Part shown: piece after piece, positions 2,729 through 9,366 of the stretch | Position numbering within the stretch: the first letter of the stretch is position 1 | How the letters are laid out: each line of letters begins with the position of its first letter | DNA from: Rhodobacter sp. CZR27 | GTDB taxonomy: Bacteria; Pseudomonadota; Alphaproteobacteria; Rhodobacterales; Rhodobacteraceae | Direction: 5' to 3' | Assembly (NCBI RefSeq): GCF_002407205.1 | Contig: NZ_CP023548.1 | Span: 1,078,501-1,142,500, forward strand | DNA length: 64,000 nt | Made by a program: the position numbers and the translations under genes | The notes under the pieces: model-generated | Seen by the model: only the letters and a program-made list of their open reading frames with translations | What the model was told of the DNA's origin: nothing | Databases searched by the model: none

Positions 2729-4318
2729 TCAGGCGTGGGACGTGTAGTGGATGTCCTTCACGTCGGCGCCGGGGGCCGATTTCTGCCGGCGGTGGATCAG
2801 CCGGTTCAGCGCGTTGACATAGGCCTTCACGCTGGCCACGACCGTATCGGTGTCGGCGGCCTGACCGGTCGAGATCTTGCCGTCCTCCTCCAGCCGCACC
2901 GAAACGGTCGCCTGCGCATCCGTGCCCTCGGTCACCGCATGGACCTGATAGAGATGCAGCTTCGCGTGGTGCGGATAGAGCATCTTCACCGCGTTGAAGG
3001 CCGCATCCACCGGGCCGTCGCCGGTGGCGTCGATCGAGTGGTCCTCGCCCTCGATGCTCAACGTCATCTCGGCCTCCTGCGGGCCTTCGGTGCCGCAGAC
3101 GACGCGCAGGCGCTTCAGTTGCAGGATGTCATGCTCGGCCGAGGTGACCTGATCCTGGATCAGCGCCACGATGTCGTCGTCATAGACCTCCTTCTTGCGG
3201 TCGGCGAGTGCCTTGAACCGCACGAAGACGTCGTTCAGCTGGTTGTCGGCCAGATCGTAACCCAGGTCCTTGAGCTTCGCGCGCAGCGCCGCGCGGCCCG
3301 AATGCTTGCCCATGACCAGCGAGGTATCGGCGAGGCCCACATCCGCGGGGCGCATGATCTCGAAGGTCTGGGCGTTCTTCAGCATCCCGTCCTGATGGAT
3401 GCCGCTTTCATGCGCGAAGGCGTTCTTGCCGACGATGGCCTTGTTGAACTGCACCGGGAAGCCCGAGACGGCGGCAACCTTGCGGCTGATGTTCATGATC
3501 CGCGTCGTGTCGATGCCGGTGCGATAGGGCATGATGTCGTTGCGGACCTTCAGCGCCATCACGACCTCTTCCAGCGCGGTGTTGCCCGCCCGTTCGCCGA
3601 GGCCGTTGATAGTGCATTCGATCTGCCGCGCCCCGGCTTCCACGGCCGCCAGAGCGTTCGCGGTCGCCATGCCCAGATCGTTGTGGCAATGCGTGGCGAA
3701 GACCACGGTATCGGCGCCCGGCACCCGCTCCAGCAGCATGCGGATCAGCTCGGCGCTTTCGCGCGGCGCGGTGTAGCCCACGGTGTCGGGGATGTTGATC
3801 GTGGTGGCGCCCGCCTTGATCGCGATCTCGACCACCCGGCACAGATAGTCATGCTCGGTCCGCGTCGCGTCCATCGGCGACCACTGGATGTTGTCGCAGA
3901 GGTTGCGTGCGTGGCTCACCGTGTCGTGAATCCGCTCGGCCATCTGGTCCATGTCGAGGTTCGGGATCGCGCGGTGCAGCGGCGAGGTGCCGATGAAGGT
4001 GTGGATGCGCGGGGATTTCGCGTGTTTCACCGCCTCCCAGCAGCGGTCGATGTCCTTGTAGTTCGCGCGGGCGAGGCCGCAGATCGTGGCGTTCCTCGAC
4101 TGCCGCGCGATGGCCGCGACGGCCTCGAAATCGCCCTCGGAGGCGATGGGGAAGCCGGCCTCGATGATGTCCACGCCCATCTCGTCCAGCAGGGCGGCGA
4201 TCTCGAGCTTCTCGTCATGGGTCATGGTCGCGCCGGGCGACTGCTCGCCATCGCGCAGCGTGGTATCGAAAATCAGGACGCGGTCCTGCTCGGAGGCGGT
4301 CTTGGTCGTGTCGGTCAT
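2729..4318 (-). CDS. leuA: 2-isopropylmalate synthase
   Basis: LeuA condenses acetyl-CoA with 2-oxoisovalerate in the first committed step of leucine synthesis. The 529-residue product has the metal-binding and catalytic opening FDTTLRDGEQSPGATM, the HxH-type element THCHNDLGMATANALAAVE and the motif NGLGERAGN, followed by a C-terminal LeuA allosteric domain (from about residue 390) where leucine feedback binds. Length suits the LeuA1 class. The gene follows a leader with a leucine-rich peptide and a hairpin, so it is probably controlled by attenuation as well as by feedback. It stands alone, as leuA usually does in this group. Confidence 0.96.
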   Translation of the reverse strand: MTDTTKTASEQDRVLIFDTTLRDGEQSPGATMTHDEKLEIAALLDEMGVDIIEAGFPIASEGDFEAVAAIARQSRNATICGLARANYKDIDRCWEAVKHAKSPRIHTFIGTSPLHRAIPNLDMDQMAERIHDTVSHARNLCDNIQWSPMDATRTEHDYLCRVVEIAIKAGATTINIPDTVGYTAPRESAELIRMLLERVPGADTVVFATHCHNDLGMATANALAAVEAGARQIECTINGLGERAGNTALEEVVMALKVRNDIMPYRTGIDTTRIMNISRKVAAVSGFPVQFNKAIVGKNAFAHESGIHQDGMLKNAQTFEIMRPADVGLADTSLVMGKHSGRAALRAKLKDLGYDLADNQLNDVFVRFKALADRKKEVYDDDIVALIQDQVTSAEHDILQLKRLRVVCGTEGPQEAEMTLSIEGEDHSIDATGDGPVDAAFNAVKMLYPHHAKLHLYQVHAVTEGTDAQATVSVRLEEDGKISTGQAADTDTVVASVKAYVNALNRLIHRRQKSAPGADVKDIHYTSHA

Positions 4319-4348
4319 CTGAAATCTCTCTTGTTCCTCAGCTTCATT

Positions 4349-4385
4349 CCCGGGCGCTGGTCACCTCCGAGCGGTCGCGCCCAAG
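4349..4385 (-). promoter_or_regulatory. Attenuator hairpin in the leuA leader
   Basis: On the leuA strand CTTGGGCGC can pair with GCGCCCGGG (9 bp including G-U pairs, loop of about 19 bases). It begins 8 bases after the stop codon of the leucine-rich leader peptide and ends about 30 bases before the leuA ATG. Ribosome position on the leader would decide whether it forms. A clear U tract is missing, so it could work on translation or through Rho rather than as a classical terminator. Confidence 0.55.
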
Positions 4386-4392
4386 GGCACGC

Positions 4393-4479
4393 TCAGAGGC
4401 AGCTAAGGAGAAGAAGCGCACGGGCAGCCTGCGCGCGAGGCGCGGCCGGATGGATCGCAATGGAACGGTCCCGTGTCAT
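4393..4479 (-). CDS. leuL: Leucine-rich leader peptide of leuA
   Basis: This 28-residue open frame ends in Ala-Leu-Leu-Leu-Leu-Ser-Cys-Leu-stop, with five Leu codons (CTT, CTT, CTC, CTT, CTC) in the last seven sense positions. It lies directly upstream of leuA, 75 bases before the leuA start and just before a hairpin. That is the arrangement of transcriptional attenuation, where scarce Leu-tRNA stalls the ribosome on the Leu run. The ribosome site before the ATG is weak and the exact start is uncertain; the C-terminal part and its position are the evidence. The function is inferred from layout. Confidence 0.7.
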   Translation of the reverse strand: MTRDRSIAIHPAAPRAQAARALLLLSCL

Positions 4480-4634
4480 GGCGCCGGATATTACGGAGCG
4501 CGCGGCAAAAGGGAAGCGGCATTTTGCGGATCGCGCACCGCGTCGCGCCGGGCTTCGGCGCCCTTGCATTTCCCGCAATGCTGCCATGCGGAAATTGCCT
4601 GCGCGCAGAGGACGCGCCGCCCAAACTTCCCGAA

Positions 4635-4648
4635 TTGATGCAGCGCAA
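4635..4648 (+). promoter_or_regulatory. FNR/NnrR-type box upstream of the pseudoazurin-like gene
   Basis: TTGAT-GCAG-CGCAA has one FNR-like half (TTGAT) and one NnrR-like half (CGCAA) with the usual 4-base spacer. It ends 80 bases before the ATG at 4729, a reasonable distance for an activator site. Control by low oxygen or nitric oxide is inferred. Confidence 0.45.
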
Positions 4649-4728
4649 GCCCCGCGGGCGCAAGCAGGAGTAGATCAATGCCGGTGAACATCTCTCTTCG
4701 GAATGAAACCGCACAAAGGACGACTCAC

Positions 4729-5190
4729 ATGCTCGCGAAATTCCCGATGATCGGCATCGCCGCCGGGTTCGCCGCGGCCCTTGCCGCGCCCGCGGCCCTT
4801 GCAGCCCACCACGAGATCGCCATGGTCAACATCGGTTCGACCGGCGCCAAGGCCTTCGAGCCGAGCTACATCCAGGCCGAGGTCGGAGATACCGTGACCT
4901 TCGTGCCCGTCGACAGGGGCTTCAACGCCGAGATCATCCCCGGCATGCTGCCGCTTGGCGCCCTTGGCTTCAGGGGCGAGATGAACAAGCCCGTCACCAT
5001 CACCCTGACCCAGGAAGGCGTCTGGGGGGTCAAGAGCATGCCCTACTATGGCATGGGCATGGTGGCGCTGATCCAGGTCGGCGCGCCGGTGAACCTCGAG
5101 GATGCGCTGTCGGTGCCGCAACCCGCCCGGGCGCAGGCCCGGCTGGAGCCGATGTTCGCGCAGGTGATGCAGAACTACGAGGCGAACTGA
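4729..5190 (+). CDS. Pseudoazurin-like periplasmic cupredoxin lacking copper ligands
   Basis: Pseudoazurins are periplasmic blue copper proteins that carry electrons to nitrite reductase. The 153-residue product has a signal peptide (cleavage after about residue 25, ALAA) and keeps the pseudoazurin framework: FEPSYIQAEVGDTVTFVPVD in the N-terminal half and the GMGMVALIQVG strand. Three of four type 1 copper ligands are changed. Mature His40 is Phe (precursor F65), Cys78 is Ser (S103) and His81 is Tyr (Y106); only Met86 (M111) remains. The offset to standard numbering is exactly 25 at all four sites. It should not bind type 1 copper. The ATG at 4729 has AAAGGA upstream; the in-frame ATG at 4678 would spoil the signal peptide. 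It sits next to nirV-nirK. Confidence 0.85.
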   Translation: MLAKFPMIGIAAGFAAALAAPAALAAHHEIAMVNIGSTGAKAFEPSYIQAEVGDTVTFVPVDRGFNAEIIPGMLPLGALGFRGEMNKPVTITLTQEGVWGVKSMPYYGMGMVALIQVGAPVNLEDALSVPQPARAQARLEPMFAQVMQNYEAN

Positions 5191-5231
5191 CGCGGGGGCA
5201 GGGGCCCTTTCGTCGAGCCCGAGGAATGGAA

Positions 5232-5256
5232 AATGCCCGGCCATCGGCCGGGCATT
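5232..5256. terminator. Bidirectional terminator hairpin between the pseudoazurin-like gene and nirV
   Basis: An 11-bp perfect stem, AATGCCCGGCC with GGCCGGGCATT, encloses a 3-base loop. It lies between converging genes, with A residues before and a short T-rich stretch after. Confidence 0.8.
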
Positions 5257-5304
5257 CGCCTTGCCCGACGCCGCACATTGGCGGCCGGCTCGGCGCATCA
5301 GGGA

Positions 5305-6126
5305 TCAGCCGGCGTCGCGCACCAGCCGGAAGCCCAGAAAATCCGGCGGCACGCCCGCCGCGCAACCGCCCGAGCGGGCGTCGCGGACGAAATCCACGAT
5401 GAACGCGCGGTGCTTGCCCTGCGCCACGCGCACTCCGCAGAACCGCTCGGTCGCGAGTATGCGGCCGTCCTCGGACAGCTGGCTCTTCTCGTCGCAGCTG
5501 TCGGTCCATTCCCAGACGTTTCCGGCCGCATCCGCCAGCCCCAGGCTGTTCGTGCCGAAATGTCCGCGCGGATGCGGCACCAGATCGGCCTCGCCGCGGC
5601 GCTCCACCTCGGCGCGGTAGCTTGCCAGCCAACGCTCCGAGGGATCGAGCCCCTCGGCGCCAAGCGCGCCGTCGAAGCCGCGCTCGGCCGCGGCGCGCAG
5701 CCACTCCTCGTCCGTCGGCAGCCGCCAGCTTCCGCCCGTGCGGCGCGACAGCCATGCGGCATAGGCGGTGGCATCCGACCAGTTCACCCCGGTCCGGGGC
5801 AGGTCGCCGTTGCGGTCGGCGTCCGACGCGGCACCGCCTTCGCCCGTCGCCTCTGCCGGCGGGCAGGCGCCGTCGGCGACGCAGCGGGCGTAGTCCTGAC
5901 GCGTCACCTGATACTGCATGATCTGGAAGGCTGCCGCCTCGCGCCTCTCGAGCGGGGCGTCAACGCGACGGGTGCCGATCCGGAACTCGCCCGAGGGGCG
6001 GTAGGCATGACTGCCGCCGGGCACCGTCACCAATGCGGGAAGGTCCGGCGCCTCTGCGGGCTGCAGGCCGATGCCGGCCGCGGCGGCAAGGGCCAGGATG
6101 CCGACCGGAAGGGCGAGGCGCAGCAT
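5305..6126 (-). CDS. nirV: NirV-like formylglycine-generating-enzyme (SUMF1) family protein
   Basis: NirV proteins are encoded with copper nitrite reductase in several denitrifiers; their exact role is unsettled. The 273-residue product begins with a hydrophobic export signal (ALPVGILALAAAAGIG) and then shows the FGE/SUMF1 fold: the Q-Y-Q-V-T-R-Q-D-Y element at about 75, a VNWSDATAYAAWLSRRTG segment, WRLPTDEEWLRAA, GNVWEWTDSC, and a C-terminal FLGFRLVRD. Of the two active-site cysteines of true FGE, one is matched by Cys in RSGGCAAG and the second is not obvious, so formylglycine formation is not assumed. It lies about 145 bp downstream of nirK on the same strand and probably belongs to the same transcript. 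Confidence 0.85.
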   Translation of the reverse strand: MLRLALPVGILALAAAAGIGLQPAEAPDLPALVTVPGGSHAYRPSGEFRIGTRRVDAPLERREAAAFQIMQYQVTRQDYARCVADGACPPAEATGEGGAASDADRNGDLPRTGVNWSDATAYAAWLSRRTGGSWRLPTDEEWLRAAAERGFDGALGAEGLDPSERWLASYRAEVERRGEADLVPHPRGHFGTNSLGLADAAGNVWEWTDSCDEKSQLSEDGRILATERFCGVRVAQGKHRAFIVDFVRDARSGGCAAGVPPDFLGFRLVRDAG

Positions 6127-6241
6127 GACGGGTATTCCTTCGCTGGGGTGGACCGGCCGCCCCCGCGATCCCGACCGGTCGGGGAGCCTGCCGTGGCTTC
6201 AGGCGCAGCCCGAAGGCCGCGCCTGAGGAAGGCGCAAGGAG

Positions 6242-6261
6242 GGTGCCGCCGGGGCGGCACC
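6242..6261 (-). terminator. Hairpin in the nirK-nirV gap
   Basis: An 8-bp stem (GGTGCCGC/GCGGCACC) with a 4-base loop starts 11 bases after the nirK stop. It could stabilise the nirK message or stop part of the transcripts before nirV. Confidence 0.5.
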
Positions 6262-6272
6262 GGGGCCGGGCC

Positions 6273-7394
6273 TCAGCCGGTCAGGCCGACAGGCGCCACC
6301 ACCTGCTCCATCAGGTCGTTGTCCCACTCGCCTTCGACCAGCACATGCGCGGTGGCGCCCTTATGGACCGCCTCGATCAGGTTGTGGTTCACATAGGCAT
6401 AGACGCCCGGCTGCAGGAACTGGTAGAGCGCCGCCCCCGCCGAGCCGCCGCGGATGAACCAGGTTTCGAGGTCGCGCTCGGGCGTGTTGTGGAACTTGCC
6501 GGTTTCCCAGACCAGGTCGCCGTGGCCGCCGATCAGGTGCGGGCGGCTGTCGCGGTTGGGCTGGCTGTGCACGAACAGAACGCGCTCTCCCACCCTGGAC
6601 TTCATCGCGTTGTCGCCGGTCAGCGCGCCCACCGCGCCGTTGAAGACGACATGCGAGGGCGTCAGCGTGTTCATCACCTCCACCATGTCGTCATAGCCCT
6701 CGGAGGGGTCCGAGTAGCGCTTGTAGGCGCCGTTCTCGTCCTTCGGGATGTAGTGGTCGCTTTCGCCGATGTAGTAGAGGCGGTCATACTGGACCGGCTT
6801 GCCGTCGGCGTCCTTCAGGCCGTCGCGCGGCAGCACCATGATGCAGCCCGCCATGCCCGAGACGACGTGCCAGGGGATCATCGGGCCGCCGGGGGCGCAG
6901 TGATAGACGAAGGTGCCGGCGCGCGTCGCCTTGAAGCGCAGCACCACCTTCTCGCCGGGGTTGATCAGCGTCAGCCCGCCGCCGCCGAGCGCGCCGGTCG
7001 CCGCGTGGAAGTCGATGTTGTGCGGCATCGTGTTCTCGGCGCGGTTGATCAGCGTGAGTTCGACATAGTCGCCCTCGTGCACCACCATCAGCGGACCGGG
7101 GATCGAGCCGTCGAAGGTCATCGCCTGCATGTGGGCATCTTCGTCGAGCTGGACTTCCTGCTCGATGATCGTCATCTCGAACTCGTTGATGACCGGGCCC
7201 GAGGTCGCGACCTGCGAATGCTCGTGCACGAACGGCGGCTTGACCAGCTTGTGCTTCACCCGCGGCAGGGCGCTGAGATCCACCGGCGCCGCGCCAGCGG
7301 TCAGGACGGCTTCCTCGGCCGCTGCCGTCCGCAGGACGAGGGGCGCTGTGGCTATTGCGGCGGCTCCCATCAGGGCGGCTCGGCGGGTGAACAT
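6273..7394 (-). CDS. nirK: Copper-containing nitrite reductase
   Basis: NirK reduces nitrite to nitric oxide in the periplasm. The 373-residue product starts with a Tat-like signal ([18 protein letters not shown]), then two cupredoxin domains. All copper ligands can be seen: MPHNIDFH (type 1 and type 2 His), [21 protein letters not shown] (type 2 His, type 1 Cys, His and Met) and [10 protein letters not shown] (type 2 His). The HLIGGHGD motif supplies the second-sphere His of the active site. The ATG at 7394 has GGAGAG upstream; the frame stays open further upstream but that part is not protein-like. An exact NnrR box lies 66 bases upstream, and nirV follows. Confidence 0.97.
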
Positions 7395-7459
7395 CTGATC
7401 TCTCCTTCGATGGATCGTGTCTATGACGCCATCGGTAGATCCACTCGTGAGTCCCGAGT

Positions 7460-7473
7460 TTGCGATTGCGCAA
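7460..7473 (-). promoter_or_regulatory. NnrR box of the nirK promoter
   Basis: TTGCG-ATTG-CGCAA is a perfect inverted repeat with a 4-base spacer, the form bound by the nitric-oxide-responsive regulator NnrR (CRP/FNR family). Its centre is about 72 bases before the nirK ATG, which fits an activator site centred near -41. Confidence 0.85.
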
Positions 7474-7664
7474 CGAGGCCGGCAGGCCGGCGCGGGCCGG
7501 TCACAAATGTCGCACCCCTGCGGTTGAACACGCGTCCCGCGGCTGCACGGCCGGAGACAGCTGCGTCGGAGGCGACCGGCCGGCCACCGTCGGCAGGTTC
7601 CCCTCGGGCCGCGGTTGGCCGGCGGCTGTCGCGGGACGCGCACCGGCTGCCGGCGGGCAGGCGT

Positions 7665-9185
7665 TCAGTCGGTCGTGGGCGCGGCTTCGGCCGGCGGCGC
7701 GACATCCGCCGGGGGACTGCCCGGCTCTTCGGCCGGAGCGGGCGTGCCGGGCGCCTCGGCCGGACGGGCGAGGATCCCGTCCCTCCATTCCCCCGCGCTC
7801 TCCTGCCCGGTGGCGTAGCGCATCACGCCCTGGCCCTGACGCTTGCCGGCGGTGAAGGTGCCCTCGTAGACATCGCCGTTGGCATATGTCGCGACGCCCT
7901 TGCCGTCGATCTCGCCGGCCTTCCAGCTGCCCTTGTAGCGGAAGCCGTCGGCCATCACGATCTCGCCCTCGCCCTCGCGCTGGCCCCTGACGAAGCCGCC
8001 GACATATACGGTGCCGTCGGCATAGGTGGCCTTGCCCTGGCCGTGACGCTCGCTGTCCTGCCAGGCGCCCTCGTAGCGGTAGCCGTCGGGATAGGTCATG
8101 ACGCCCTGGCCGTGGTTCTTCGCGGCCTTGAACTCGCCTTCGTAGACCAGACCATTGGCATAGGTCGCGCGGCCCTTGCCCTCGATCACGCCGGCCTTCC
8201 ACTCGCCGTCATAGGTCGAGCCGTCGGGATAGGTGATCTTGCCGCGCCCCTCGGGCTGGTCGGCCATGAACTGCCCGACATAGACCGAGCCGTCGGGATA
8301 GGTGACCTTCCCCTTGCCCTCGATCCGGCCGTCAACCCAGTCGCCTTCGTAGATGTAGCCATCCGCGCCGCGGAAGGTGCCCTTGCCGTGGCGCCGGTCG
8401 GCCTTGAAGTCGCCCTCGTAGATGTCGCCATTCTTGTGGGTGACCTTGCCGCGCCCCTCGCGCTGGCCGTCCTTCAGCGGACCCTCGTAAATGTCGCCAT
8501 TGGGCTGCGTAAGCTTGCCGGTGCCGTTGATCTGGCCGTTCTGCCAGTCGCCGACATAGACCAGCCCGTCCGGCATGGTCAGCGTGCCCTTGCCCTGCCG
8601 CTGGCCCTTCACCAGGTCGCCCTCGTAGACCGCGCCATCGGGATAGGTGATCTTGCCGCGGCCTTCCTTGACGCCCTCGACCCAGTCGCCCTCGTAGCGG
8701 TAGCCGCCGGGGTTCTGCATCGTGCCGCGACCGTGGTGCACCGCGTTCCTGAAGCCGCCCTCGTAGACCGAGCCGTTGGCATAGCGCGCCTTGCCCTGGC
8801 CCGTCATCTGGCCGCCCGCCCAGTCGCCTTCGTAGGTGCCGCCGTCCGAGAAGGTGATGCGCCCCTTGCCCTCGGGCTTGCCGGCGACGAAGCTGCCCTC
8901 GTAGACCGAGCCGTTGGGGAAGCGTGCGGTGCCCTGGCCGCGGATCTCGCCGTCGACCCATTCGCCGGTGTATTCGTAACCGTTCGGCAACCGGTAAGTG
9001 CCGGTGCCGTGCTGCAGTCCGTTGCGGAAGGTGCCCTCGTAGACCGAGCCGTCGTCATATTGCTTGGTCGCGACCGGCCCGAGGTCCTGCGCACCTGCCG
9101 CACCCGTCCCGACCGCAGTGCCCAGTGCCATCCCGATCAGGCCGACCCGCATGGCCCGCCCGATCTGTCCGTTCTTCATTCGCAT
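7665..9185 (-). CDS. Secreted protein of about 19 tandem MORN repeats
   Basis: After an N-terminal signal-like segment (GLIGMALGTAVGTGAAGAQ), nearly all of the 506-residue product is a run of about 19 MORN repeats, each 23 residues, with the pattern YxxGxVYEGxFxxGxxxGxGxxx. The last repeat is degenerate and the tail is rich in Pro, Ala and Glu. MORN repeats form an elongated beta-sheet and bind lipids or partner proteins; in bacteria their role is mostly unknown. Repeats are 69 bp in DNA and diverged enough that the array should be stable. I chose the ATG at 9185 (ATG at 9179 is equally possible) because the signal starts there. It stands alone. Confidence 0.85.
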   Translation of the reverse strand: MRMKNGQIGRAMRVGLIGMALGTAVGTGAAGAQDLGPVATKQYDDGSVYEGTFRNGLQHGTGTYRLPNGYEYTGEWVDGEIRGQGTARFPNGSVYEGSFVAGKPEGKGRITFSDGGTYEGDWAGGQMTGQGKARYANGSVYEGGFRNAVHHGRGTMQNPGGYRYEGDWVEGVKEGRGKITYPDGAVYEGDLVKGQRQGKGTLTMPDGLVYVGDWQNGQINGTGKLTQPNGDIYEGPLKDGQREGRGKVTHKNGDIYEGDFKADRRHGKGTFRGADGYIYEGDWVDGRIEGKGKVTYPDGSVYVGQFMADQPEGRGKITYPDGSTYDGEWKAGVIEGKGRATYANGLVYEGEFKAAKNHGQGVMTYPDGYRYEGAWQDSERHGQGKATYADGTVYVGGFVRGQREGEGEIVMADGFRYKGSWKAGEIDGKGVATYANGDVYEGTFTAGKRQGQGVMRYATGQESAGEWRDGILARPAEAPGTPAPAEEPGSPPADVAPPAEAAPTTD

Positions 9186-9366
9186 CCGTACCCGCCCCGT
9201 TCGCCGACTGCCCCGTGCCATGGCATCTGGCCGGCCGGGGGCAAAGCGTAGAGGCTGCTCCTCCGGCTGACAAGCGCCTCGGCCGCTATCGCCTTTTCCT
9301 TGCCTCGCAGTCTGGTAGAAGACAACCCAAACCCGCGTGAGCCGCGCCCGCAGACGGATCAGGATG

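Follow-up and report, generated by a model that had tools for sequence, protein, structure and literature searches.

A ppaZ-like pseudoazurin paralogue without a type 1 copper ligand set, conserved with and without nirK in the genus of Rhodobacter sp. CZR27

The gene described here, which we call ppaZ-like, lies in a 64,000-nucleotide stretch of the genome of Rhodobacter sp. CZR27 (hereafter the window; coordinates in Table 1). As originally predicted, positions 4729–5190 encode a pseudoazurin homologue: the product scores above the cut-offs of both the NCBIfam pseudoazurin equivalog TIGR02375 (158.1 bits against 109.85) and PF00127 (29.2 bits against 21.2). In the AF2 model, based on an alignment of 41 sequences (the window's protein and 40 of the 120 listed), it has a cupredoxin fold with C-terminal helices and, by this modelling, the pseudoazurin fold is kept. 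A start further upstream, at 4678, would give a 170-residue product; we did not adopt it, as the alignment of the four species is well conserved after 4729 and poorly before it. The gene and the nirV–nirK pair are convergent, tail to tail. Within the genus, nirV shows about 69–72% identity and its neighbour nirK 85–88%. A MORN-repeat gene stands beside nirK in four genomes of the genus and next to the ppaZ-like gene in G051.

The type 1 copper ligands of pseudoazurin are His40, Cys78, His81 and Met86 (mature numbering). At these positions the ppaZ-like protein has Phe, Ser, Tyr and Met (F-S-Y-M, as opposed to the normal H-C-H-M), an earlier reading that is borne out by an alignment with 121 other rows; the offset of 25 to mature numbering was also right, residues 65, 103, 106 and 111 falling on 40, 78, 81 and 86. 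A second, normal ligand set elsewhere in the protein is absent: the mature part contains no Cys and therefore offers no alternative set. The N-terminal Ala-His-His was considered as a copper site and rejected because neither His is common to all eight F-S-Y-M proteins (see below); indeed, no His is common to the eight. Since the type 1 ligand set is missing, blue-copper electron transfer is out of the question, which supports the original claim that the protein is not an electron donor, in the sense of a blue-copper donor. Pseudoazurin itself (TIGR02375; e.g. PDB 1adw, 1paz and 1zia, and the apo form 1pzc) possesses both the ligands and Met16, whereas the ppaZ-like protein has three of the four ligands and Met16 replaced.

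Table 1. Features of the ppaZ-like locus (window coordinates unless stated otherwise)
Feature	Position	Strand	Basis or remark
NnrR/FNR-type box TTGATGCAGCGCAA	4635..4648	+	94 to 81 bp before the ppaZ-like ATG
Copper-free pseudoazurin homologue, ppaZ-like	4729..5190	+	153 aa
Hydrophobic N-terminal stretch, putative signal peptide	residues 1-25 of the ppaZ-like protein
Codon Lys41 = mature 16	4849..4851	+	Met in listed proteins outside F-S-Y-M
Codon Phe65 = mature 40 (copper ligand His in pseudoazurin)	4921..4923	+	alignment
Codon Ser103 = mature 78 (copper ligand Cys)	5035..5037	+	alignment
Codon Tyr106 = mature 81 (copper ligand His)	5044..5046	+	alignment
Codon Met111 = mature 86 (axial ligand Met, kept)	5059..5061	+	alignment
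Perfect inverted repeat of 11 bp, loop 3, in the gap that separates the convergent ppaZ-like gene from nirV	5232..5256	.
nirV, FGE-sulfatase domain	5305..6126	-	family model; named for its domain and its position after nirK
nirK, copper nitrite reductase	6273..7394	-	family models
NnrR box TTGCGATTGCGCAA upstream of nirK	7460..7473	.
MORN-repeat protein	7665-9350	-	15 matched MORN stretches

Ligand columns were read in an alignment of 122 rows comprising the query, the normal pseudoazurin of the same genome and the best 120 of 124 database matches. Nine rows are F-S-Y-M (the query, the identical entry P0001, and P0002–P0008), 112 are H-C-H-M and one has a deletion at the ligand columns. A profile search, of which the best 120 of 1820 matches were taken, brought the listed proteins to 214 (about 8,000 candidates were scored in each of the two protein searches). 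Eight of these are F-S-Y-M (P0001–P0008, P0001 being the window's own) and 204 combine H-C-H-M with Met16; position 16 is Lys in all eight F-S-Y-M proteins and Met in all other 206. The residues at 16, 40, 78 and 81 are invariant in the eight proteins despite whole-sequence identities to the window's protein of 73–88% (83% for P0006, an R. sphaeroides entry), and Met86 is kept in every one. Among the best 120 of the 1820 profile matches, the F-S-Y-M proteins score 288–317 bits and the next protein 179. Two odd patterns, each seen in one protein, could be errors: P0120 (H--M, ligand loop deleted) and P0189 (N-C-H-M, His40 to Asn).

At the genome level, 72 of 295 genomes sampled evenly across the family gave a match, and ligands were read at 97 loci (all 92 places of this family search and five from the genus search). 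Eighty-eight loci are H-C-H-M, four are F-S-Y-M and five are odd, namely L104 (H-S-H-M), L044 (a remnant in G051) and the fragments L123, L125 and L131. All four F-S-Y-M loci belong to the window's genus (G000, the window's own genome, G051, G295 and G297), where the ppaZ-like gene is thus found in four of five genomes. These counts, from the comparison of ligand positions proposed as a check of the original prediction, uphold it. The plasmid search returned 315 records, all below 60% identity and with no place covering 80% of the query, and the search of viral contigs for the gene gave no match.

In a tree of 212 rows, the 11 F-S-Y-M rows form one clade with an SH-aLRT support of 100. The tree was made by a quick method on 125 columns (with a few-columns warning), the ligand columns being kept and duplicates and fragments left out (L008, PAZ_FSYM, L044, L123, L125, L131, P0001, CAN_L001 and P0120). 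The stem of the clade measures 0.56 changes per column and its inner branches are shorter, which points to a burst of change followed by constraint. The NG86 dN/dS values of the ppaZ-like gene (0.145–0.204; six pairs from four species) fall within the range of the intact paralogue, the normal pseudoazurin (0.143–0.266; six canonical pairs); only NG86 values are quoted and they are rough at this G+C content, YN00 being unusable for 11 of the 12 pairs and the ML dS (10.8, 27.6 and 35.8) for three of the 12. The ppaZ-like coding sequence is under purifying selection and is not decaying. The selection originally suggested is thus supported by dN/dS, the invariant replacements and the upstream box that is kept (see below), and the gene is almost certainly a selected copper-free paralogue of pseudoazurin.

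The gene adjoins nirV–nirK in three of the five genus genomes; G000, G295 (83% complete) and G297 each carry it along with nirK, nirV and a normal pseudoazurin. In G051, a genome of C. sphaeroides (C. for Cereibacter, the putative name of the genus) whose ppaZ-like protein equals P0006 over the mature region, the gene is intact and has kept its position, with leuA on one side and the MORN-repeat gene on the other, and neither nirK nor nirV has a match in the genome at E <= 0.001. The only match to a normal pseudoazurin there is C-terminal, 46 residues long and 74% identical (L053:4683-4820, G051:C4). A candidate nirV remnant between the ppaZ-like gene and the MORN-repeat gene was rejected (best tblastn E 0.96), and short G+C-rich DNA matches of G051 to the nirV–nirK stretch, with E values as low as 0.004, were attributed to chance. 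The reverse situation is found in G296, an assembly of about 260 contigs in which nirK and nirV do not share a contig: it has both of these genes together with a normal pseudoazurin but lacks the ppaZ-like gene, of which the 759 bases separating nirV from leuA contain no significant trace (best E 0.058). Gene and nirK are therefore separable both ways in this comparison of one genome per species. The presence of the ppaZ-like gene does not depend on NirK, and a function linked to the adjacent nitrite reductase, as originally suggested, finds no support. G051 has nnrS-family genes (two matches) and one CbbQ/NorQ-family gene, at a distance of about 4.4 kb from one nnrS match; both families occur in all five genus genomes. 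TIGR04246 (nosZ) stays under its cut-off in all five, with full-length matches only in G000, G296 and G297.

A TTGN8CAA box precedes the ppaZ-like gene by 83–108 bp in all four carrier species (TTGATGCAGCGCAA at -94 in the window, TTGACTCACCGCAA at -83 in G051, TTGATGCAGCGCAA at -91 in G295 and TTGATGCAGCACAA at -108 in G297), and in each species the 350 bp of upstream sequence contain no second match. A TTGN8CAA box is likewise present before the four nirK genes found in the genus, at about -80 as counted from the second codon. PMC1274295 gives ctTTGcgnnnncgCAAag as the NnrR consensus; the window's nirK box fits the NnrR core TTGcgnnnncgCAA. In the ppaZ-like box, the right half fits the NnrR consensus (with one mismatch in G297), whereas the left half departs from it (TTGAT or TTGAC versus TTGCG) and resembles FNR. 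The whole window contains four TTGN8CAA boxes against 4.8 expected, i.e. not above chance, so that only position and conservation speak for the box. These suggest that the gene may be regulated by NnrR or FnrL. A sigma-70 scan of 4300–7700 yielded a single promoter-like site, inside the ppaZ-like gene, and none upstream of it; none of the three terminator-like sites of the scan lies immediately downstream of the gene in its own orientation. The normal-looking terminator of the original prediction finds no backing in this consensus scan, which does not report the inverted repeat between the convergent genes either; the repeat is there, however, and the A-run on its left would suit a terminator of the nirK–nirV strand.

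The original prediction presented the gene as new, but its type is already known. A 'novel pseudoazurin' gene, ppaZ, of Rhodobacter sphaeroides 2.4.3 was published in 2001 (Jain and Shapleigh, Microbiology 147:2505) according to PMC1262709, which places it in one operon with nirK–nirV; PMC4770552 likewise cites the 2001 paper. Compared by description, the two are alike in being pseudoazurin-type genes associated with nirK–nirV, and differ in that the window's gene is convergent with them instead of sharing their operon; the window's gene very probably corresponds to ppaZ. The ppaZ product is said to lack the copper ligands, which was reportedly the main point of the 2001 study and the reason for the name; the gene was reportedly studied under denitrifying conditions and is said to be controlled by NnrR. 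In the literature searched, with most subscription journals outside it, we found nothing on separability from nirK, the change of Met16 or a test of selection, and nothing on the function of ppaZ beyond one sentence in PMC1262709.

As a whole, the explanation that we favour, with somewhat less than even confidence, is that of a conserved copper-free pseudoazurin paralogue of the ppaZ type working as a non-redox binding protein. Gly39, Pro80 and Gly85 and the basic character of positions 38, 57, 77 and 109 are kept in all eight F-S-Y-M proteins, although Lys10, a Lys in 96 of the 112 normal rows, is lost in all eight. The hydrophobic patch and the basic residues presumably form the docking face of pseudoazurin. 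The kept fold, the largely kept docking face, the conserved box and retention without NirK together suggest a binding protein without redox function in the NO-responsive periplasm, most likely a metal-free member of the NO/denitrification regulon that would use the old docking face without electron transfer. Such a protein would be exported, would be produced on exposure of the cells to NO or low oxygen, and would bind through the hydrophobic patch and Lys/Arg 38, 57, 77 and 109. Once docked, it would occupy a periplasmic electron-transfer partner or tune its activity; this partner, for which it might compete with pseudoazurin or a cytochrome, would belong to NO/denitrification metabolism and be either a protein other than NirK or one bound in addition to NirK. 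We put this docking or competition mechanism forward as a tentative proposal. Depending on when the G051 lineage lost nirK, retention of the gene there may be recent inertia.

The same docking face could instead serve a NirK-specific partner or assembly factor, which would dock to NirK or its apo form and stabilize or regulate it together with NirV. The place of the gene beside nirV–nirK in three genomes and the TTGN8CAA boxes upstream of both genes agree with this, as does PDB 2p80, an entry shared by a pseudoazurin and a NirK sequence, which we take to be a complex of the two; nonetheless, G051 keeps the gene without any nirK or nirV match, G296 has both without the gene, and we consider such a role unlikely. 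Conversion of the copper pocket into another small-molecule or ion site (Lys16, Ser78, Tyr81 and Met86), binding or sensing an anion, NO or some other ligand, would account for the invariance of the replacements in otherwise divergent proteins, but Phe40 and Tyr81 might do no more than fill the pocket, and we regard this reading as quite improbable. We give very little credence to a decaying gene with its frame still open, as had been suggested: although the gene is absent from G296, its dN/dS, invariant replacements and kept box argue otherwise, and decay in this genus has the look of the 46-residue match to which the normal pseudoazurin of G051 is reduced. Hardly any more can be given to a copper chaperone or decoy, another early suggestion, which has proximity to a copper enzyme in its favour and, against it, a mature protein without Cys and eight homologues without a common His. 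Sequencing or assembly errors at the ligand codons are refuted by the same residues in the genomes of four species and in further database proteins.

The non-redox binding protein can be given a bolder form, which we hold to be speculative and on balance somewhat unlikely: a cupredoxin remade in one burst (Lys16, Phe40, Ser78 and Tyr81) as a periplasmic regulator, metal-free and under the control of NO, that would act through the docking face and serve NO metabolism independently of NirK, and that would for this reason persist in a C. sphaeroides genome after the loss of both nitrite reductase and the genuine pseudoazurin. If the mechanism were true, bacteria would offer a clear example of an electron carrier that became a non-redox binding protein through loss of its metal, in analogy to pseudoenzymes. 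Two genomes of the genus lend themselves as natural tests, one having the gene without nirK and the other nirK without the gene.

Copper-free cupredoxins also occur in plants as the early nodulin-like proteins (ENODLs), phytocyanins that belong to a different cupredoxin branch from pseudoazurin. Like the ppaZ-like protein, ENODLs are of the cupredoxin type and said to lack copper-binding residues; unlike it, they are plant proteins, mostly chimeric arabinogalactan proteins, according to PMC10048054. Finally, the pseudoazurin at L104 (G054:C12:97131-97469) has only its Cys ligand changed, to Ser, and sits on a long branch outside the F-S-Y-M clade; it is perhaps an independent copper loss.
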